Origin: Candidatus Phytoplasma sacchari
GTDB lineage: Bacteria > Bacillota_I > Bacilli_A > Acholeplasmatales > Acholeplasmataceae
Direction of reading: 5' to 3'
DNA: 36,454 nt
Assembly (NCBI RefSeq): GCF_009268105.1
Contig: NZ_VWXM01000005.1
Coordinates: 1 to 36,454 of the forward strand
Part shown: positions 9,079 to 36,454 of the stretch, piece by piece
Position numbering within the stretch: the stretch's first letter is position 1
Layout of the letters: the number at the start of each line of letters is the position of its first letter
Translations under genes and position numbers: made by a program
Notes under the pieces: generated by a model
Seen by the model: the letters and a program-made list of their open reading frames with translations, nothing else
Database searches by the model: none
Told to the model about the DNA's origin: nothing

Positions 9079-10248
9079 TAATTTAACTTTCTTCTAATAA
9101 TTTTTTAAAATAATTATTTTAAATTTTTTTATTCTAAAATAATTAATAATTAATTTTGATATTATTCATTAAATTGAATTTGATAATTGACAGTTAAATA
9201 ATTAAATAAATACATAATTAATAAAAAGAAAGAATATTATATTTCTTTTATTATGAAATTGTGAAACAACACCAATTGTATTATATCTTTTTTATTTTGA
9301 AATTAATTATATTTTTAATTTAATTCTTTTTAAAGAAAATAAAAAAATATTTAAATATTAATTTTAATCTAATTTAACCTATATGTTTTTTATAAGTTTT
9401 TTATTATAAAAAATTATCTCTTAAAACAAAAAAACTTCATTAATTAAAACTTTATATAATTATAATATAAATTATAAATCAAGTTTATCATTCTTAATAA
9501 TTCTAAATTTAATAAAAAATTTTTTCAAAGATAATAGAAAATTGAAAGAATTTTTTTAAAAAAATATATAGATTAACTAATAAAGAAAATTAAAATAAAA
9601 TTAACATTTTAAATATTATTAATAATTTATTAGATAAAATAAAAGTTTTTTAAAATCAGATAATAAAAAAATAATTATTATAGGAGTTATTAATAGTTGA
9701 AATAAAATAGATTAATTTTTAAAAAGTTATTTGGTTAAAAAAATATATATATTATTCAAAATAAAAAAATTTTTTTTAATAAATAAAAAATAAAATGCTA
9801 ATTTCAAAATATAAAATTTAAAATAAATTTAATAAAAGTTCTCAAAAAAATAATCTAAATTATATAAATTAAAAAAATTTAATAATTTTAAAGTAATCAG
9901 TAAAAAGATTTAAATATTTTTTAAAAAAAAAACTTATTTTATTTTTATCATTTAAATATAAAAATTTATTATAAAAAATTTAACTCATTATTAAGTTAAA
10001 TTAATTTATATTTTGTAGACTCTTATTTAAAATAAAAAAATAATAAAAAATTTATTTTAAAAGTTTTTTAAAAAAATATATCAGTTAAGAATATAATTAA
10101 AAATAATTTAAAAATTAAATTATTTTTTAATAACTTACACTACTTCAAAACATCAGTAATAATAACTTAAAAAATTATAAATAATTATTAATATCTTATA
10201 AAAAATAAAAAAATAAATAAAAAAAAATTATTTTTTATTATCTATTAA
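9079..10248. other. Gene-free stretch, 1.2 kb
   Basis: No intact gene on either strand. Short plus-strand pieces near 9500-9720 read as Lys/Asn/Phe-rich fragments with stops and may be remains of a gene, but base composition alone could produce them. A TTGACA at about 9187 resembles a -35 box but has no gene after it. Confidence 0.5.
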
Positions 10249-18987: not shown

Positions 18988-20331
18988 ATGAATAAAACTA
19001 AAATTATTTGTACTTTAGGACCATCTTCTTATAATAAAAAAAATTTGAAAAAAATGATCCAATCAGGTTTAAATATTACTAGATTTAATTTTTCACATGC
19101 TGATTATGATAAAAGCAAAGAAATAATAAAAATTATTAAATCTCTGAATAAAGAATTAAAAACTAATGTAGCATTTTTATTAGATACTAAAGGCCCAGAA
19201 ATAAGAACTCATGATTTCAAAGGAGAAGTTATAATTAAAAAAGATTCATTGATTAAGATTTCTTCTAAAGAAATTTTAGGAGATGAAAATAATTTTTCTG
19301 TAACATATTCTAACTTTTATGAAGAATTAAACATTGGTGATATTATTTATGTAGACGATGGTTTTTTAACCTTAAAAGTTATAGAAAAAACTAGTAACAA
19401 AGAATTGATTACTAAATCTATGAATACACATATAGTGAAATCAAGAAGAGGAATTAACGTTCCTAATGTAAATTTGAATATGAAATTTATTTCAGATAAA
19501 GATTACAAAGATATTGTATTTGCTATTCAAAATGATTATGATTTTATAGCAGCTTCTTTTACTAGAACAGCTCAGGATATTCTTGATATAAGAGATATTT
19601 TAGCAAAATATCAAAAAAATGATATTAGAATTATCGCTAAAATAGAAAATCAATCTGGAATAGACAATATAGATGAAATTATAGAAGTTTCAGATGGTAT
19701 TATGATAGCTAGGGGAGATTTAGGTATTGAAATAAACGATATAACAGTTCCTTTTTATCAAAGTATGATAATTAAAAAATGTTTAGTTAAAGGAAAAACT
19801 GTTATTGTTGCTACACAAATGTTAGAATCTATGCAAAAAAATTCAAGACCTACTAAAGCTGAAATATCAGATGTTTTTAATGCTGTAAAAGAAGGGGTTG
19901 ATGCTACTATGTTATCTGGAGAATCTGCTTCAGGAATTTATCCTATAGAATCTACATCTTATATGAATAAGATTAATAATCAATCAGAAAAAAGTTTAGA
20001 TTATAATTTTTTATTTACAATTTATAAACCAAAAAATATTAGAGAAAATTTATTTTTAAATGTGATTCGAATGGCATTAAATTTACCTATTAAAGCTATA
20101 GTTGTTTATAATTTTGAAGATGCCTGTAATATTAGTAAATTTAGATCTTCCGTAATAGTATTTGCTTTAGTTAAAAATCATAAAGAAGCTAGATTGTTAT
20201 CTCTTAATTTTAGTATCATACCTGTATTAAGTGAAAATGAATTAAAAGAAAAAATATTACTTTTAGATCAAGAAAATAGTATAGAAAAGAATTTGATTTT
20301 GCTAAAAGAAAACAAAATTGAAATAAAATGA
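18988..20331 (+). CDS. pyk: Pyruvate kinase
   Basis: Converts phosphoenolpyruvate and ADP to pyruvate and ATP, the last energy-yielding step of glycolysis. The 447 residues are slightly shorter than usual (about 470), because the C-terminal regulatory domain is compact. Signatures in order are NKTKIICTLGPSS, TRFNFSHADYD, LDTKGPEIRT, IIAKIENQSGIDNIDEII with MIARGDLGIEI (the active-site lysine is in AKIEN), VIVATQMLESM and GVDATMLSGESASGIYP. All catalytic boxes are intact. It is followed after 146 bases by a 2-hydroxycarboxylate carrier on the same strand, with the 18-bp repeat between them. Confidence 0.96.
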   Translation: MNKTKIICTLGPSSYNKKNLKKMIQSGLNITRFNFSHADYDKSKEIIKIIKSLNKELKTNVAFLLDTKGPEIRTHDFKGEVIIKKDSLIKISSKEILGDENNFSVTYSNFYEELNIGDIIYVDDGFLTLKVIEKTSNKELITKSMNTHIVKSRRGINVPNVNLNMKFISDKDYKDIVFAIQNDYDFIAASFTRTAQDILDIRDILAKYQKNDIRIIAKIENQSGIDNIDEIIEVSDGIMIARGDLGIEINDITVPFYQSMIIKKCLVKGKTVIVATQMLESMQKNSRPTKAEISDVFNAVKEGVDATMLSGESASGIYPIESTSYMNKINNQSEKSLDYNFLFTIYKPKNIRENLFLNVIRMALNLPIKAIVVYNFEDACNISKFRSSVIVFALVKNHKEARLLSLNFSIIPVLSENELKEKILLLDQENSIEKNLILLKENKIEIK

Positions 20332-20380: not shown

Positions 20381-20477
20381 ACTATATATCTTCTTTATTT
20401 TTTTATACCTTTTTTTATTTAGAACAAAATTTATTCAAAAAAATTATTATTAATTGAGAAAGGGTTATTTAAAAAAT

Positions 20478-21905
20478 ATGATTAATAAAGATAAAATAAC
20501 TAATATTTTTAAAAATTTTAAAAATACAAAAATTTTTGATTTTAAAATTGGATTTTTTTTGATTATTTTCATTATAGGTATTTTAAATATTTTTTATATA
20601 CATCAAAATCCTGATTTGATTAAAAAAATATGGCATCCTTTAATAACTCCTTTGTTTATTATGATGCTGTTGGGTATTACTCTAAATTTTATTGGAAAAA
20701 ACATTCCTATATTAAATAAGTTTGGGTTAGGTTTTTTATTATGTATAATAATCCCTTCTTTTATGGTTCATAAAGGAATTATAAATAAAGATATTGCTTA
20801 TTACTTTGATAAACTTTTTTTTAATAAAACTTCTCCAAATAAAGTCGAAGAAGGGATAGGGGTGAATTTTTCACAATTTTTTATTACGATTGTAATAGCT
20901 GGAAGTATTTTAAGTGTTGAAAAAGATTTATTAAAAAGATCTATTTTTAAATTTATTCCATTAACTTTAATTTCTATTTTTTTAACTATTTTAATTACTG
21001 GTTTTTTAGGTTATTTACTAGGTTATAAATGTCCTGAAATATTTTTGGATAAATCCAAAGGATCATTTTTTGATTCTATATTTTTTGTTTCAGTTCCATT
21101 AACAAACGGAGGAACTAATTTAGGTATTAATGGATTTGCGAATGGTATTTATCATGATTTTTTTCAAAAAGATGCTTCTGCGATAAGAACAGCTATATTG
21201 GCACCTTTAGTTTTAGCAAGAGTTTTGAGTATATTTTTTGCTAGTGTTTTATTTGTTCTTTTTGATAAAACTAATTTTAGTGGTAAAGGATATTTAGAAA
21301 AAAATAAAAAAACAAATTTAAATTTAAAAAAAAGTAAAAAAAGCATTTTAGAATACCAAAATATTGGTATAGGAATGTTAGTGATTTTTGCTTTTTATTC
21401 AATAGGTAACATTATAAACTCTTTTATTTCTAATAAATTTCCTACTTTGAAGTTAGATGCGATGGTTTATGTTATATTTTTACTTTTAATAATTAAAATT
21501 TTTAATTTAATGTCTGAAAAAAATCAAAACTGTGTAGTACAAACTGGTAAATTTATGATGATTAACTTTACTGCTCCTGTTTTAGCAGGTTTAGGATTGA
21601 CAACTAATTTTAGTGAATTAATAAGTTGTATTACTAATAAAAATATTTTATTAATGGTGTTTTTTTCATTATTGTTAGTGATTCTAATTACTTTTTTATT
21701 ATCAAATTTTTTCGGTTTTTATCCTCTAGAAGCTTCTTTAACAGCTGGTATTTGTTCTCATAGTATAGGAGGAACTGGTAATATTGGAGTTATGGCAATT
21801 AGTCACAGAACAGATTTATTACCTTTTGCTATGATAGCTACTAGAATAGTTGGTCCTATTATATTTTCTTTAGCTTCTATAAGTTTTGGTTACATTTATA
21901 AATAA
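20478..21905 (+). CDS. Na+/2-hydroxycarboxylate carrier (2HCT, CitS/MleP-like)
   Basis: A secondary transporter of the 2-hydroxycarboxylate family, which brings in malate or citrate with Na+. The 475 residues contain about 11 hydrophobic segments. Two family-specific re-entrant loops are present: VPLTNGGTNLGINGF in the first half and SHSIGGTGNIGVMAISHR in the second, the latter followed by ATRIVGP. The halves are joined by a lysine-rich cytoplasmic loop (about 285-300). The frame extends to a TTG at 20454, but ATG 20478 follows AAAGGG and is preferred. Compared with the second carrier at 32687 it keeps the same loops but differs widely. It may be the malate carrier typical of phytoplasmas, while the other is specialised for citrate. 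That assignment is inference. Confidence 0.9.
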   Translation: MINKDKITNIFKNFKNTKIFDFKIGFFLIIFIIGILNIFYIHQNPDLIKKIWHPLITPLFIMMLLGITLNFIGKNIPILNKFGLGFLLCIIIPSFMVHKGIINKDIAYYFDKLFFNKTSPNKVEEGIGVNFSQFFITIVIAGSILSVEKDLLKRSIFKFIPLTLISIFLTILITGFLGYLLGYKCPEIFLDKSKGSFFDSIFFVSVPLTNGGTNLGINGFANGIYHDFFQKDASAIRTAILAPLVLARVLSIFFASVLFVLFDKTNFSGKGYLEKNKKTNLNLKKSKKSILEYQNIGIGMLVIFAFYSIGNIINSFISNKFPTLKLDAMVYVIFLLLIIKIFNLMSEKNQNCVVQTGKFMMINFTAPVLAGLGLTTNFSELISCITNKNILLMVFFSLLLVILITFLLSNFFGFYPLEASLTAGICSHSIGGTGNIGVMAISHRTDLLPFAMIATRIVGPIIFSLASISFGYIYK

Positions 21906-30358: not shown

Positions 30359-31744
30359 ATGAATTCATCAAAACTATTTAAAATTATACCAAATAATTTT
30401 TTTCATTTTCTATCTTCAGCTAATAAAGATATTTATATTGATTGTTTATTTATTTTAGAAAAACTATTAAATGATGAAAATAACTCAAATATAGATAAAA
30501 ATATAGCTGTAAATGCTTTAGAAAATTATTTTAATAATAAATCTAGCATTATTTTTGAAGACGATAATTACAACAAAGAAATAATCAGTAATAATAGACA
30601 AAAAGCTTTTAAAATTATTTACATATTTAAAAAAAGTGGATGGTTAGGAGAAGAAAGAGTTAATCATAATATTATAATTTTAAACTTCTTTGATTATAGT
30701 TTAGAAATGATTAATTTTTTTAAAAAAACACTAAATAAAGTCAAAAAAGAATCTGTAGGTAATATATATAGTATTTATTCACTTTTAAGATTTTTTTTAA
30801 TTGAGAAAAATTATGCAACCTTTCATGAAGCTATCATGAAAACTCAAAATTTAATTTTTAAATTACAAATTTTAAAGGCTAATATTTATCGTTTTTATCA
30901 TCAATTACTAAATATAAATTTTGAAAATAACATAAAAAATGTTTTAGAACAACTTTTATTAGATTATAAAAAAAATTTTTTTGATTATTCTTATTATTTA
31001 TTAAAAACAAATGATAATTTTTTTAAATATAAACGTAAAATAAATTTATTTATAGAAAAAATACAAAATAATCAAGAATACATAGAGTTTTTATCTAAAG
31101 AACTCATCAAAATTGATAATAGTTTTTCTTTTGAAAAATCATTAAAATTTATTAAAAATGAAATAATAAACATGAAGAAAAATTTCATTCAAATAGACGA
31201 ATTAATAGAAATTATAGACCAAAAAAATGAACAATATTTGCAAAAAGCTTGTGAAAGAATATTATTTTTTAATAATTTAAAAAACAATTCAAAAAATATT
31301 TTAAATTTAATTATTAAAATGATCTTGAAAAATAAAAAAGAATATCAAAATTTTTTTAATATTAATTTTATTAAAAATTTAGATGAATTATCTTTATACA
31401 AACCAAGATTTTACAAAAAAGAAATAATTATACAACCTTTACAAAAAATAAATTCCAAAATAGAAGAAAACATTATGAAAAAGAAAAAAACTTTTTTAGA
31501 TAAAGATTATTTTTATAATAAAAAAAATATTAACAATTTTGTTGAAAAAATTTTAAAACAAAAAAATCCTTTTAAAGCATCTGATATTAAATTAGAAAAT
31601 AATACAAATATAACAAGACTTATCCTAATTTTTCTTTATTCTTATTCAAACAAAGAAAAAAGCAAATATAAAATTAAACAACTAAATAAAAGAATATCTA
31701 GTTACAATATGAATTTCTCTGATTTTTTAATATATAAAAAATAG
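30359..31744 (+). CDS. jetA: JetA-family (DUF5716) Wadjet kleisin-like protein, solitary
   Basis: A 461-residue protein resembling JetA, the kleisin/MukF-like subunit of the Wadjet SMC complex that recognises and cuts plasmids. Matching places, from memory of the family, are the N-terminus LFKIIPNNFFHFLSSANKDIY with IDCLFILEKLL; AFKIIYIFKKSGWLGEE followed by LNFFDYSLEMINFF; IYSIYSLLRFF; IYRFYHQLLN; the helical IIDQKNEQYLQKACERILFF; NLDELSLYKPRF; and the C-terminal ASDIKLENNTNITRLILIFL region. The order and spacing agree with the whole length of JetA. In Wadjet, jetB (MukE-like), jetC (SMC-like) and jetD (TOPRIM nuclease) follow at once; here a DJ-1 gene and citS follow instead. The ATG has no strong ribosome site. 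The gene is long and intact in a genome that erodes unused genes, so it is probably maintained. Confidence 0.75.
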   Translation: MNSSKLFKIIPNNFFHFLSSANKDIYIDCLFILEKLLNDENNSNIDKNIAVNALENYFNNKSSIIFEDDNYNKEIISNNRQKAFKIIYIFKKSGWLGEERVNHNIIILNFFDYSLEMINFFKKTLNKVKKESVGNIYSIYSLLRFFLIEKNYATFHEAIMKTQNLIFKLQILKANIYRFYHQLLNINFENNIKNVLEQLLLDYKKNFFDYSYYLLKTNDNFFKYKRKINLFIEKIQNNQEYIEFLSKELIKIDNSFSFEKSLKFIKNEIINMKKNFIQIDELIEIIDQKNEQYLQKACERILFFNNLKNNSKNILNLIIKMILKNKKEYQNFFNINFIKNLDELSLYKPRFYKKEIIIQPLQKINSKIEENIMKKKKTFLDKDYFYNKKNINNFVEKILKQKNPFKASDIKLENNTNITRLILIFLYSYSNKEKSKYKIKQLNKRISSYNMNFSDFLIYKK

Positions 31745-32077: not shown

Positions 32078-32081
32078 ATGA
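31980..32081 (+). CDS. Small ORF overlapping the DJ-1 start
   Basis: A 33-codon frame (MNKSKQKLNKYIYLIF and on to KKMDL) ends in TGA that overlaps the DJ-1 ATG in the form ATGA. Such an overlap often means translational coupling, which would make up for the weak ribosome site of the DJ-1 gene. Upstream there is AAAGGA at 31942-31947; a TTG at 31965 in the same frame would be closer to it than ATG 31980. The product is basic and partly hydrophobic. It may be a leader peptide rather than a functional protein, or chance. Confidence 0.3.
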   Translation: MNKSKQKLNKYIYLIFKKIYQKIMIKTNKKMDL

Positions 32082-32611
32082 AAGGATTAATTATTTTATA
32101 TAACAATTTTGAAGATTGTGAAGCTTTAGTTACAAGAGCTGTTTTAATGAAATCAGGAATAAATATGATAACTGCAACAAATAATTCAAATCTAGAAGTT
32201 ATTTCTTCTCAAAAACTTAAAATAAAAACAGATATTAATTTACTAAATTTAAATTTGAAAAAAGATCAATATGATTTTTTAATTCTGCCAGGCGGACCTT
32301 ATGTACAAGAACTTTTTTTAAATGAAAAAAATAGTAATAATAATTTGAAAATTTTACTAGAAATAATAGAATACTTTTATAATCAAAATAAAGTTATAGG
32401 AGCCATATGCGCTGCACCAGCTCTATTAGGAAAAATTGGTTTATTAAAAACAAAAAAATTTACTTGTTATCCAGGATACGAAAAATATATAAAAGAAGGT
32501 ATATATTGTCCTTCAGAAAAAGCAATTACAGATGAAAATTTTGTCACTTCAAGATCACCAGATACAGTTTTTGAATTTTCTAAACATTTATTAAAAAAGC
32601 TACTATTTTAA
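32078..32611 (+). CDS. DJ-1/PfpI family protein
   Basis: A 177-residue protein of the DJ-1/ThiJ/PfpI family, which includes protein and nucleotide deglycases, glyoxalases and stress proteins of unsettled activity. The nucleophilic elbow IGAICAAPALLG carries Cys 111. Other family marks are the N-terminal GLIILYNNFEDCEALV, with Glu 15 in the place of the DJ-1 helper Glu, and DFLILPGGP. The length suits the YajL/DJ-1 branch. It lies on the same strand as the citrate genes, 75 bases before citS, and probably shares their transcript. Whether it protects against reactive carbonyls formed during metabolism is speculation. The start ATG overlaps the stop of a short upstream frame. Confidence 0.88.
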   Translation: MKGLIILYNNFEDCEALVTRAVLMKSGINMITATNNSNLEVISSQKLKIKTDINLLNLNLKKDQYDFLILPGGPYVQELFLNEKNSNNNLKILLEIIEYFYNQNKVIGAICAAPALLGKIGLLKTKKFTCYPGYEKYIKEGIYCPSEKAITDENFVTSRSPDTVFEFSKHLLKKLLF

Positions 32612-32686: not shown

Positions 32687-34141
32687 ATGAAAACAACAAA
32701 AAAAAATAAAATTTTTGGGTTACCAATAGTTATTATATTTATATTTTTATTCATAAATATATTACATATTGCAACATCTTTTAATTATGAAAATTCATCT
32801 TTTGATTATTCATTTCATAGCATAATATCTATGTTATCTTTTACTATGTGTCTTGCGGCATTATTCAAAATAATAGGCGAAAAAACTCCTATTTTAAAAG
32901 ATATCGGAGGAGGATCAATCTTATGTATATTGGTGCCTGCTTTTATTTTTAATTATAAATTTAAATATTTAAATGATGGTTTTGCAATTTTTCAATCTGA
33001 ATTTAAAGAAAAAGCTAAATTCCTGAACTCTAATTATACAACTAATGGAGTTGGTATAGGATTTTCAGACTTATTTGTATCTTTTTTAGTAGCAGGTAGT
33101 CTTTTGAGTATACCTAAAGATATAATAAAATCAACTTTAAAAAAATTTTTACCATTAGTTTTAATATCACTAACTATTTCAGCAACTATAGTGGGTTTAT
33201 TAGGTGTTTTACTTAATCCTATAAAAGGTATTGATGCTATTCAAGGATGCGATGCAGGTAAATTTGCTAATGCTATATTCTTCATTTTTGTACCTATATC
33301 ATCAGGAGGAATTACATGCGGAATAGTGCCTTTAACACAAATTTTTTCACAAGGTAATGTAGGTCATATTGATCTATATAGATCCCATATTTTATCTTCT
33401 CTATTAATAGGTGGTATTTCTAGCGTAATATTCGGAGGATTGATTAAAAAATTTTTTGGTAATTCTAAATATAATAATCCCAAAGGTCTATTAGAAAAAA
33501 ATCATCATGCAAATAAAGAAATAAAGAAAGAAAAAACAATAAAAAAAGATAAAACAGAAAATCTTAATATTTCAGATATAACAAATGGTTTATTTTTAGT
33601 TTTTTGTTTTTATATTATAAGTAATATAATTAAAAAATTTATCGTTATAATTATACCTTCTATAAAAAATTATATGCCTCCAACAATTGTTTTTTTAGTA
33701 GTTATAATTATGTTTATAAAAATACTTAATTTAATTCCTGAATATTTTACAAACTGTATAAATAAATCTTCTGAATTGATTACAAAAACATTTTCCTACT
33801 CTATTTTAGTTATAGTCGGGATTGGAACTGATATCAACAAGATAATATCAAGCGTAAATAATATCTCTTTCTTAATAACTTGTTTATTATGTGTTATTGC
33901 AACAGCATTATCAGCTGCTATTATCGGAAACAAAATAGGATATTATCCAGTTCAATCATCCATATCAGCAGGTTTATGTGCTAATAGTATTGGAGGAGCA
34001 GGTAATTTAGCTATTTTAGAAGCAGCTTCAGAACAAAAATTATTACCTTATGCACAAATATCTACTCGAATAGGAGGAGATATTGTAGTTATCATAGCTA
34101 GTATTCTATTTCCTATAGTTTTTAAAAATTTACCAAAATAA
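32687..34141 (+). CDS. citS: Citrate carrier, 2HCT family (CitS)
   Basis: A membrane carrier of the 2-hydroxycarboxylate family with 484 residues and about 11 hydrophobic segments. Both re-entrant loops are clear: VPISSGGITCGIVPL in the first half and ANSIGGAGNLAILEA in the second, followed by STRIGGDIVVI, which holds the substrate-binding arginine of the family (STRIGG). A lysine-rich cytoplasmic loop (about 265-295) joins the halves. The position next to citG, citD and citE makes citrate the likely substrate. A site AAAGGAAAA lies about 20 bases before the ATG. It is clearly divergent from the carrier at 20478 (for example GGITCG against GGTNLG), so the two are not a recent duplication. Confidence 0.93.
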   Translation: MKTTKKNKIFGLPIVIIFIFLFINILHIATSFNYENSSFDYSFHSIISMLSFTMCLAALFKIIGEKTPILKDIGGGSILCILVPAFIFNYKFKYLNDGFAIFQSEFKEKAKFLNSNYTTNGVGIGFSDLFVSFLVAGSLLSIPKDIIKSTLKKFLPLVLISLTISATIVGLLGVLLNPIKGIDAIQGCDAGKFANAIFFIFVPISSGGITCGIVPLTQIFSQGNVGHIDLYRSHILSSLLIGGISSVIFGGLIKKFFGNSKYNNPKGLLEKNHHANKEIKKEKTIKKDKTENLNISDITNGLFLVFCFYIISNIIKKFIVIIIPSIKNYMPPTIVFLVVIIMFIKILNLIPEYFTNCINKSSELITKTFSYSILVIVGIGTDINKIISSVNNISFLITCLLCVIATALSAAIIGNKIGYYPVQSSISAGLCANSIGGAGNLAILEAASEQKLLPYAQISTRIGGDIVVIIASILFPIVFKNLPK

Positions 34142-34150
34142 TAATTAAAA

Positions 34151-35035
34151 ATGAAATTATTTCCAATAAAAAACAAATACTTATTCAATTTTTGGCAAAA
34201 TCATAATAAAAAAGAACTAATAAATATTGCAGTTAAAATGATAGATATAGAATTATATTCTTATCCATCCTTAGGTTTGGTTTCATTTAAAGACTCAGGT
34301 TGTCATACTGATATGAACATCGAAACTTTTTTAGATTCTAAAAATACTTTTTATATTTATTTTTCAGAAATTTTTATTTTAGCTAAAAAAGATAAAAAAC
34401 TTAATTTTGAAAAATTAAGAAATATAGGAATTAAACAAGAAAAAAGAATGTTTCAAATAACTAAAAATATTAATACACATAAAGGTTTAGTTTTTTCTTT
34501 TGGTATTATTTTTTATATTGCTACATATAGTTTAATACATAAAATTTCATTTTATTGCTGGAAAAATATAATAAAAAACTTCGTACAACCTCTAAATAAT
34601 GATTTTTTGTTATTGAATAAAAAAACAAACGGAGAAAAAATATTTCATAAATATCAAATCAAAGGAGCTAGGGGAGAAGCATTAAAAGGTTATGAAATTG
34701 TATTTGATAAAGGTATTTTATTTATACAAAAATGTTTGAAAAAATATCCTCATTTAAAAGAAAAAGACATCTATTTATGTTTATTAATATTTTATCTAAA
34801 AGAAATAGATGATACTACTTTAATATCTAAAATAGGATATGAAAAAACAAAAAAAGTAAAAATAAAAGCTCACATTTTGATTAATGATTTAATAAACAAA
34901 AATTTTGAATTTTTTAAAAAAAAAATCATTAAAGAAAACGAATATTTTCAACAACAAAAGATATCACCTGGAGGATGTGCAGATCTTTGTGTTATAACTC
35001 TTTTTCTTTTTTTTCTTTACTCTTTTGATTGCTAA
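34151..35035 (+). CDS. citG: Triphosphoribosyl-dephospho-CoA synthase
   Basis: Makes 2'-(5''-triphosphoribosyl)-3'-dephospho-CoA, the precursor of the prosthetic group of citrate lyase, from dephospho-CoA and ATP. The 294 residues match CitG. Its motifs are YPSLGLVSFKDSGCHTDM (usual form P-GLV...GAH-DM), ITKNINTHKGLVFSFGII (T-GVNTHKGAIFSLG), GARGEALKGYEIVF, EIDDTTLISKIGYE and the C-terminal ISPGGCADLCVITLFLFFL (SPGGSADLLA). The gene begins 9 bases after citS, so they are co-transcribed. No Shine-Dalgarno is obvious. The holo-citrate-lyase transferase CitX is not in the window; it may be beyond the right end. Confidence 0.93.
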   Translation: MKLFPIKNKYLFNFWQNHNKKELINIAVKMIDIELYSYPSLGLVSFKDSGCHTDMNIETFLDSKNTFYIYFSEIFILAKKDKKLNFEKLRNIGIKQEKRMFQITKNINTHKGLVFSFGIIFYIATYSLIHKISFYCWKNIIKNFVQPLNNDFLLLNKKTNGEKIFHKYQIKGARGEALKGYEIVFDKGILFIQKCLKKYPHLKEKDIYLCLLIFYLKEIDDTTLISKIGYEKTKKVKIKAHILINDLINKNFEFFKKKIIKENEYFQQQKISPGGCADLCVITLFLFFLYSFDC

Positions 35036-35129
35036 TAAAATAAAAATATTATTTAAAATAAATTAAAAAAAATTTTTGTTAAATTTAAAATATTTTAAAC
35101 ATTAAAAATAGAAAGAAATTATTTAAATA

Positions 35130-35783
35130 ATGACAAATAAAATTGATAAACACATAGAAAAATTAAAAAAAAACCCTATAAGTGTAATTGTAAGAACAAA
35201 AAAATTTGAAGATGCAAAAAAAATATTAAAAAATACGATTGAAAATGGGTTTTTTTTTGCAGAAATAACCTTAACTATACCTAATTCTTTTCAGTTAATT
35301 TATGAAACTAAAAAAAAATATAATGAAATTATTATAGGAGCAGGTACTGTTCTTAAACTTGAAGAAGCAAAAAAAGCTGTAGAAATGGGGGCTGAATATT
35401 TAGTATCTCCTATTTATAATGAAAAAATTCTAAAATGGTCATTAGAAAACAATATTTTATATATTCCTGGAGTTATGACTGTAAATGAAATGTATAAAGT
35501 TACTAAACAAGGAGCTAAAATTTTCAAATTATATCCTGCAACTTTTTTATCTAGCGAAACATTAAAATTAATAAAACAACCATTTCCTAACTTTAATATA
35601 TTAGCTACAGGTGGTATAAATTTAAATAACATAAAATCTTATTTTGACGCAGGTGTTTTAGCTGTAGGTATTACAGGGATTTTAGGAGGAATATCTGAAA
35701 AAATAAATGAAGAAGAAATAGCGAATTTAGCAAAAAAATATATAAATATCTCGAAACAAATTATAAGAGAAAGATGTGATTAA
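35130..35783 (+). CDS. eda: KDPG/KHG aldolase family (Eda-like), putative oxaloacetate decarboxylase
   Basis: A (beta/alpha)8-barrel aldolase of the Eda family, 217 residues, cytosolic, normally a trimer. The catalytic Glu 45 (FFFAEITLT) and Schiff-base Lys 133 (KIFKLYPAT) fall at the same residue numbers as in E. coli Eda, from memory of that protein. Further marks are IIIGAGTVL, YLVSPIYNE, IPGVMTVNEM and ILATGGINLNNI. E. coli Eda also decarboxylates oxaloacetate. Here the gene sits between citG and citD, overlapping citD by 8 bases, and nothing of the Entner-Doudoroff or sugar-acid pathways is nearby. The job I infer is to turn oxaloacetate from citrate lyase into pyruvate and CO2. This is inference from context; sugar-acid cleavage is the alternative. 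Confidence 0.9.
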   Translation: MTNKIDKHIEKLKKNPISVIVRTKKFEDAKKILKNTIENGFFFAEITLTIPNSFQLIYETKKKYNEIIIGAGTVLKLEEAKKAVEMGAEYLVSPIYNEKILKWSLENNILYIPGVMTVNEMYKVTKQGAKIFKLYPATFLSSETLKLIKQPFPNFNILATGGINLNNIKSYFDAGVLAVGITGILGGISEKINEEEIANLAKKYINISKQIIRERCD

Positions 35784-36099
35784 TTTGATATATAATGAAA
35801 AAAAAGAAATAAAAAAAACAAATAATAACACAATCAATTTTTGTGGTTCTTTAGAATCAGGAGATTGTTTAGTAAGTATTGAACAAAATGAAGAAAAAAA
35901 AATTAATCTTTCCATTAGTTCGCCCTTTATAAGACAATTCGGACCAAGAATAAAAAAAATTTCTTTAAAAATTTTAAAAGAACAAAATATTAATTCTTGT
36001 AATTTGATCATTCAAGACCAAGGGGCAATTGATGAAGTTATAAAATCTCGTATAATAACAGTTTTAAATAGAATGAGAAAAAATAAGCAAAAAAAATAA
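35776..36099 (+). CDS. citD: Citrate lyase acyl carrier protein (gamma subunit)
   Basis: Carries the phosphoribosyl-dephospho-CoA group that shuttles the acetyl/citryl residue inside citrate lyase. The protein is about 107 residues. Signatures are NFCGSLESGDCLVSI (the modified Ser stands in LESGD, the same context as in E. coli CitD) and SSPFIRQFGPRI followed by IIQDQGAIDEVIKSRI (usual QFG...DKGALD..I.AR). The start is GTG 35776, overlapping the end of eda; TTG 35785 in the same frame is an alternative and loses only three residues. The N-terminal 18 residues are longer than in E. coli. The overlap indicates coupled translation. Activation requires CitG and a CitX activity. Confidence 0.92.
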   Translation: MINLIYNEKKEIKKTNNNTINFCGSLESGDCLVSIEQNEEKKINLSISSPFIRQFGPRIKKISLKILKEQNINSCNLIIQDQGAIDEVIKSRIITVLNRMRKNKQKK

Positions 36100-36175
36100 T
36101 CAAAAAATGATTTAATTTTTTATTATTTTTTTTAATTTCTCTAAAATAAGGTAAAAAAAGTAAAAAAGGTAAAAA

Positions 36176-36454
36176 ATGAAAAAAAATAGAAAAACAATGT
36201 TATTTGTGCCTGGTAACAAATCTTCTTTATTCAAAGATATAATTTCATATGAAATGGATACTGTGATGTTTGATTTAGAAGATTCTATCAGTTTAGAAGA
36301 AAAAGATGCTGCTAGAGAATTAACTAAAAATATGATTAATTTTTTCAATTATAATCAATATAATATAGAAGTTTGTGTAAGAATAAATCATTTTGATACT
36401 CCCTTTTATGAAGAGGATTTAAGAGAAATAGTAGGATATTCAAAAACTAATCTA
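36176..36454 (+). CDS. citE: Citrate lyase beta subunit, 5' part (cut by window end)
   Basis: The citryl-ACP lyase subunit, which splits citryl-ACP to oxaloacetate and acetyl-ACP. The first 93 codons are in the window. They include RKTMLFVPGNKSSLFKDII, MFDLEDSISLEEKDAARELT and VCVRINHFDTPFYEEDL, which match the N-terminal third of CitE, including the acidic LEDS metal/substrate site and the VRIN strand. The ATG at 36176 has AAAAAGG upstream; this site is part of a run in which AAGGTAAAAAA-like units repeat (about 36148-36176). It is separated from citD by 76 bases. citF (alpha subunit) would be expected just beyond the end. Confidence 0.93.
   Translation, partial: MKKNRKTMLFVPGNKSSLFKDIISYEMDTVMFDLEDSISLEEKDAARELTKNMINFFNYNQYNIEVCVRINHFDTPFYEEDLREIVGYSKTNL

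Follow-up and report, generated by a model that had tools for sequence, protein, structure and literature searches.

An Eda-type aldolase gene within the citrate lyase operon of Candidatus Phytoplasma sacchari, a candidate oxaloacetate decarboxylase of citrate-fermenting mollicutes

In lactic acid bacteria and enterococci, the operons for fermenting citrate (citMCDEFXG with CitP; oadHDB-citCDEFX-oadA-citMG) bring together a transporter, the citrate lyase subunits, the prosthetic-group genes, and a step from oxaloacetate to pyruvate that is assigned to CitM or to a biotin-dependent oxaloacetate decarboxylase (OAD). An operon of this known kind lies at the right end of the window analyzed here, a stretch of 36,454 nt that makes up the entire contig C25 of the draft genome of Candidatus Phytoplasma sacchari (505,173 bases, 29 contigs, 90% complete). 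It has the same kinds of parts and differs in its decarboxylase slot, which is occupied by eda, encoding a protein with the fold of 2-keto-3-deoxy-6-phosphogluconate (KDPG) and 4-hydroxy-2-oxoglutarate (KHG) aldolases. What is new is this Eda-type enzyme in the decarboxylase slot across two bacterial families, and we consider it probable that it acts as a biotin-free class I oxaloacetate decarboxylase reserved for citrate fermentation and passed on together with the cit cassette.

Citrate lyase has been reported in the peanut witches'-broom phytoplasma (PMC3633829), and citXFEDG in Ca. P. sacchari (PMC10577292), corresponding to the same citrate lyase genes as those of the operon described here. 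A sequence-only reading of the window had regarded citrate lyase as unfamiliar in phytoplasmas, a view that these two papers had already overtaken. The word "aldolase" does not occur in the main text of either, nor does "Eda" in PMC10577292. For Spiroplasma eriocheiris, a citCDEFGSX cluster was described with the remark that oxaloacetate "cannot further become pyruvate" (PMC9666726, 2022), and for Mesoplasma whartonense, citrate lyase was described as present and the genes for further oxaloacetate transformation as lacking (PMC12239587, 2025); the terms "aldolase", "Eda", and "KDPG" appear zero times in the text of PMC12239587. Among the matches listed from the open-licence literature, none connected eda with the cit operons of these bacteria.

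In the window, citS (32687..34141, 484 aa), citG (34151..35035, 294 aa), eda (35130..35783, 217 aa), citD (35776..36099, 107 aa, GTG start), and the beginning of citE (36176..36454, first 93 residues) were identified on the plus strand from open reading frames (ORFs) and Pfam and NCBIfam matches. The intergenic distances are 9 bases for citS-citG, 94 for citG-eda, and 76 for citD-citE, and eda overlaps citD by 8 bases; the one-strand arrangement, the 9-base gap, and the 8-base overlap described in the sequence-only reading agree with the ORF coordinates. CitS belongs to the 2-hydroxycarboxylate transporter (2HCT) family (PF03390, E=1.2e-86; TIGR00783 (ccs) below cut-off), and its predicted substrate is citrate or malate. 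CitG is a triphosphoribosyl-dephospho-CoA synthase (PF01874, E=8e-48; TIGR03125 at 190.9 bits, below the cut-off of 272.3), CitD is the citrate lyase acyl carrier protein (PRK13253 at 74.3 bits, cut-off 65; PF06857), and CitE is the citrate lyase beta subunit (TIGR01588, E=5.2e-25, covering profile positions 1-82 of 288; HpcH/HpaI in Pfam). The window Eda matches PF01081, with PRK06552/eda as the best NCBIfam model, and has the class I barrel fold, its predicted structure confirming the fold only. All five families of the cit region exceeded the Pfam cut-offs; of the best NCBIfam models, only PRK13253 (CitD) was above its cut-off.

Since the window and contig C25 are coextensive, the break at 36454 is a contig end. 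The genes expected beyond it by the sequence-only reading were retrieved from two other contigs. The minus strand at the end of contig C3 encodes the remainder of citE (L021:19148-19666, 172 aa, running off the contig), followed by citF (495 aa, 617.7 bits, also assigned as citF by Pfam) and citX (206 aa, PF03802, E=9.7e-33, 113.7 bits), and citF thus stands next to citE. The citC gene (358 aa, PF08218, E=1.4e-61) is located on contig C8, unlike in the operons of lactic acid bacteria and enterococci. C25 and C3 could not be joined by any exact overlap in the range of 10-200 bases, and a comparison with the relative G004 indicated that approximately 90 bases of citE are absent between the two contigs. 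Apart from these unread bases, the citrate lyase gene set (citD, citE, and citF; citG, citX, and citC) is complete.

The presence of eda was compared with that of citF in 29 phytoplasma genomes (the group labels phytoplasma, Acholeplasma order, and Spiroplasma/Mesoplasma family are inferred assignments). A full citF was found in eight genomes and a citF fragment in one more (G003), and the same nine genomes harbored an eda 60-100% identical to the window copy, which was absent from the other 20. A weak hit with stops in G012 (E=1.7e-4) was considered as an eda remnant and was unconfirmed, as the stretch gave no cit or eda match at 0.01. In all eight genomes with a full citF (that of the window, G004, G005, G011, G019, G021, G023, and G026), eda is placed between citG and citD; because this order recurs in every one of them, it cannot be ascribed to chance. 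The same eight genomes and G027 were the ones with citC among the 29 examined; in G005, citC adjoins citX in the convergent orientation. G027 retains its citC (L159/L189, contig C2) in the absence of citF, perhaps as another stage in the decay of the citrate system. In G003 (L029:6254-7350), remnants of citD and citF come after an open and intact eda, within approximately 450 bases of it. If G003 is taken as Ca. P. mali strain AT, these remnants suggest that the Eda of Ca. P. mali is a leftover of this operon; a 2011 review discussed it as a possible source of pyruvate via KHG or KDPG cleavage, in a passage that does not refer to citrate (PMC3322544).

When 5.8 billion proteins were searched, the nearest named Eda relatives after those of phytoplasmas belonged to Spiroplasma and Mesoplasma (44-55% identity, among 120 listed of 2740 matches). 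Of 60 genomes of the Spiroplasma/Mesoplasma family, 10 were found to have citF, and the same 10 have an eda with a profile score of 285-349 bits, with all other eda matches at 200 bits or less. Each of these 10 high-scoring edas sits inside the cit cluster, so the nesting of eda in cit operons of related mollicutes, put forward as a check in the sequence-only reading, was borne out in 8/8 phytoplasmas with full citF and 10/10 citF-bearing genomes of this family. One locus (G444) is ordered as in phytoplasmas (citS-citG-eda-citD-citE-citF-citX), and its citC precedes citS; a GntR/FCD-type regulator adjoins citX there (L146). The other nine are arranged as citS-citD-citE-citF-citX, citC, and then eda. 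The citC between citX and eda was identified by Pfam in eight of these nine, G463 being outside that scan, and a divergent citG lies between citC and eda in eight of the nine, whereas it precedes citS in G449. Two shorter ORFs occupy the usual place of citC in G463 (L152, 6142-7174, minus strand), and its citC may be broken.

In both Mesoplasma loci (L155 and L156), alsS and then alsD directly follow eda, and in G463 alsS lies approximately 3.4 kb beyond eda. AlsS and AlsD convert pyruvate into acetoin via acetolactate. In the Mesoplasma loci, eda thus stands between the maker of oxaloacetate and a user of pyruvate, and the presence of alsS and alsD is a further likeness to the citrate operons of lactic acid bacteria and enterococci. 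The Eda of L156 (G447) is identical to P0026, which is named Mesoplasma sp. JKS002658, and JKS002658 is listed as an M. whartonense strain (PMC12239587). The eda clade is represented in this locus and in the locus of phytoplasma-like order in G444. The S. eriocheiris and M. whartonense papers call the fate of oxaloacetate missing, and an eda in the cit cluster would supply the step; for M. whartonense, the run of eda, alsS, and alsD after the cit genes would fill the published gap.

The cit-linked Edas formed one clade (support 100/98) in a tree with the loop columns masked, which took in P0014-P0060 of the 120 listed matches (2740 found). The CitF tree had the same shape; it was built by a "quick" method with no bootstrap and included 41 of 75 other loci (after five had been dropped, the first 12 and every other locus from there on). 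These loci came from a profile search of genome contigs that gave at least 587 confirmed citF stretches, of which the best 80 were kept (5 phytoplasma and 75 other), so they represent the nearer CitF relatives and no random sample. No eda was found in the stretch around citF in any of the 75 non-phytoplasma loci, of which 37 span at least 20 kb and 68 span 10 kb, nor in any of 12 Acholeplasma-order loci (stretches of 4.4-18 kb); as a control, the eda queries recovered E. coli eda and 10/10 Acholeplasma-order edas. An OadA match was obtained with a single query in 3 of the 75 loci of the same extents, and OadA was present in the citF-bearing Acholeplasma-order genomes G030, G042, G043, and G053. 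An origin of the phytoplasma operon from an Acholeplasma-type cit operon was rejected, as phytoplasma CitF groups with that of the spiroplasma family, far from Acholeplasma-order CitF, and as eda and citF are on different contigs in the Acholeplasma-order genomes having both (G030, G043, G047, and G054). The cit cassette was apparently transferred between spiroplasmas and phytoplasmas. The possibility that eda is a chance neighbor was likewise rejected, given the co-occurrence of eda with citF in two mollicute families.

The residues of the pyruvate site (R22, E45, T73, P94, K133, and T160) are kept in all 18 cit-linked Edas. Lys133 (codon at 35526..35528, plus strand) aligns with the Schiff-base Lys129 of Thermotoga maritima, and a lysine is found at this position also in 18/18 unlinked mollicute Edas and in both references (E. 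coli and T. maritima). The roles of T. maritima Lys129, the Glu, and the carboxylate-binding Arg are given in a figure legend of PMC3188589. The loop after strand 8, in turn, is altered in the cit-linked Edas: position 182 is Thr or Ser in 18/18 of them and Gly in 18/18 unlinked mollicute Edas as well as in the two reference enzymes. We take this loop to be phosphate-binding. Bacterial KHG/KDPG aldolases (T. maritima, 1wa3/1vlw; E. coli) have Gly-Ser or Gly-Gly there, the pair expected of a functional KDPG aldolase, whereas the cit-linked Edas carry Thr-Gly (or Thr-Ala); in the window Eda, it is Thr182-Gly183 (codons at 35673..35678, plus strand), aligned with Gly-Ser in both references. The cit-linked eda genes are also tied to citrate lyase and not to edd, unlike those of bacterial KHG/KDPG aldolases.

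E. coli Eda is known to decarboxylate oxaloacetate, and class I pyruvate aldolases can do so via the same Schiff base as in aldol cleavage. In the proposed route, CitS would import citrate, and citrate lyase (CitD-CitE-CitF), readied by CitG, CitX, and CitC, would split it into acetate and oxaloacetate. The operon Eda would then convert oxaloacetate into pyruvate without metal, biotin, or nicotinamide: Lys133 would form a Schiff base on the keto group, the beta-carboxylate would leave as CO2, and the enamine would be protonated by Glu45 or a nearby water before pyruvate is released. Pyruvate would be passed in phytoplasmas to pyruvate dehydrogenase, PduL, and acetate kinase, yielding acetate and ATP by the published phytoplasma route, and in Mesoplasma to acetoin via AlsS and AlsD. 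The cit-linked Edas would represent a lineage of their own, which has abandoned the customary loop after strand 8 and has been inherited with the cit cassette, at times horizontally. We lean, by a small margin over its contrary, toward a broader proposal, in which this lineage would be a third solution to oxaloacetate decarboxylation beside CitM and OAD, having lost its sugar-phosphate activity, passing, along with the citrate cassette, between mollicutes associated with plants and insects (phytoplasmas and spiroplasmas), and filling the step that two genome studies called missing.

The gene content of phytoplasmas was examined for other enzymes of this step. No OadA (PYC_OADA domain) was detected in the 29 phytoplasmas, and a member of the lactate/malate dehydrogenase family was found in two, neither with citF. 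A search for OAD or malate dehydrogenase elsewhere in the 90% complete Ca. P. sacchari draft gave none; the fumarylacetoacetate hydrolase type, OadB, and phosphoenolpyruvate carboxykinase were not searched. The operon itself contains neither OadA nor a CitM-like malic enzyme. The sequence-only reading had named the aldolase as the only candidate for oxaloacetate. It is the best one, judging by co-occurrence, clade, pyruvate site, and the alsS-alsD neighbors, from which we infer its activity; it is not the sole one, because malic enzyme is present in the Ca. P. sacchari genome.

Several observations weigh against a dedicated decarboxylase role of the cit-linked Eda. The eda of G444 (L146, around 9300-9954, minus strand) has an early in-frame stop, its close relatives P0014 and P0015 being intact, so a working copy is not kept in every cit cluster; this stop would agree with the 2022 statement on S. 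eriocheiris, if G444 is that species. Conversely, G003 keeps an intact eda without citrate lyase, and either the enzyme is useful by itself or the loss is recent. Gly is also absent from the loop in 8 of 92 database homologues outside the cit-linked clade, and the loop change is perhaps a single event because it is common to one clade. The co-occurrence counts are not independent because the genomes are related. Malic enzyme (400 aa) offers an alternative route in Ca. P. sacchari (contig C24) and is found in 28 of the 29 phytoplasmas; it lies directly upstream of DJ-1/citS in G026 and is present in two citF-bearing genomes of the Spiroplasma/Mesoplasma family.

The best-placed alternative, which we nevertheless judge unlikely, is that the phytoplasma malic enzyme (SfcA/MaeB) decarboxylates oxaloacetate in the manner of CitM of lactic acid bacteria, with Eda as a bystander or back-up. 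Malic enzyme was proposed for the oxaloacetate step in PMC4518686, and many lactic acid bacteria use CitM, which belongs to the malic-enzyme family, as their soluble oxaloacetate decarboxylase (PMC10798043). Malic-enzyme relatives were found in 6 of the 75 other citF loci, including four Paenibacillus loci (L061, L062, L065, and L067) in which citF is immediately followed by a relative sharing 54-57% identity with the phytoplasma enzyme, a CitM-like arrangement. In phytoplasmas, however, malic enzyme occurs whether or not citF is present, whereas eda goes with citF; its gene is on a different contig from the operon in Ca. P. sacchari, and it is absent from 8 of the 10 citF-bearing genomes of the Spiroplasma/Mesoplasma family.

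We find it improbable that the window Eda is an ordinary KDPG or 4-hydroxy-2-oxoglutarate aldolase releasing pyruvate from other substrates. Its family and fold, the suggestion made for Ca. P. mali (PMC3322544), and the intact eda without citrate lyase in G003 are in accord with such a function. The phosphogluconate dehydratase (edd) family PF00920 was found in none of the 29 phytoplasmas, including the 90% complete Ca. P. sacchari draft, and they are therefore without an evident source of KDPG; the altered loop after strand 8 and the strict tie of eda to citF in two mollicute families also speak against an ordinary aldolase. Least probable of all, and in our view very unlikely, is that oxaloacetate decays spontaneously or through metal ions, a reaction noted in PMC10798043, and that Eda acts on another 2-oxo acid that arises as citrate is broken down, or performs aldol addition starting from pyruvate, as this leaves the co-inheritance of eda with citDEF unexplained and as the cit clusters of lactic acid bacteria are paired with dedicated decarboxylases (PMC10798043).

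If Eda does decarboxylate oxaloacetate, a single-subunit biotin-free enzyme would complete a short route from citrate to acetate with a gain of ATP. How phytoplasmas, which have resisted culture, obtain their energy is a matter of debate; citrate and malate have been described as the main organic acids in phloem sap (PMC3633829, PMC3322544). An eda that adjoins cit genes and encodes the altered loop would also be a simple marker for citrate use in mollicutes.

Upstream of the operon, a DJ-1/PfpI-family gene (32078..32611, plus strand; PF01965, E=3.5e-32) directly precedes citS. It is found at this place in five of the seven phytoplasma loci that include the region (the window, G004, G021, G026, and G011) and not in G005 or G019. 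A JetA-like protein, a component of Wadjet (PF18982; PADLOC JetA1), is encoded further upstream at 30359-31744 and occupies the same place in G004; as no jetB, jetC, or jetD was recognized among the window ORFs scanned (18 by Pfam and 5 by PADLOC), the gene looks like an orphan. A second 2-hydroxycarboxylate transporter gene adjoins a pyruvate kinase gene elsewhere in the window (20454-21905 and 18988-20331); it is possibly a malate importer, with the operon CitS as the citrate importer. Among the other phytoplasma loci, citG is split at the same point (approximately residue 221) in L028 (G026) and L149 (G011). Short ORFs lie between the two halves of citG in L028, and also between citD and citE, where two of them match reverse transcriptase and one of these also matches a type II intron maturase domain. 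From these matches, group II introns are likely in L028.

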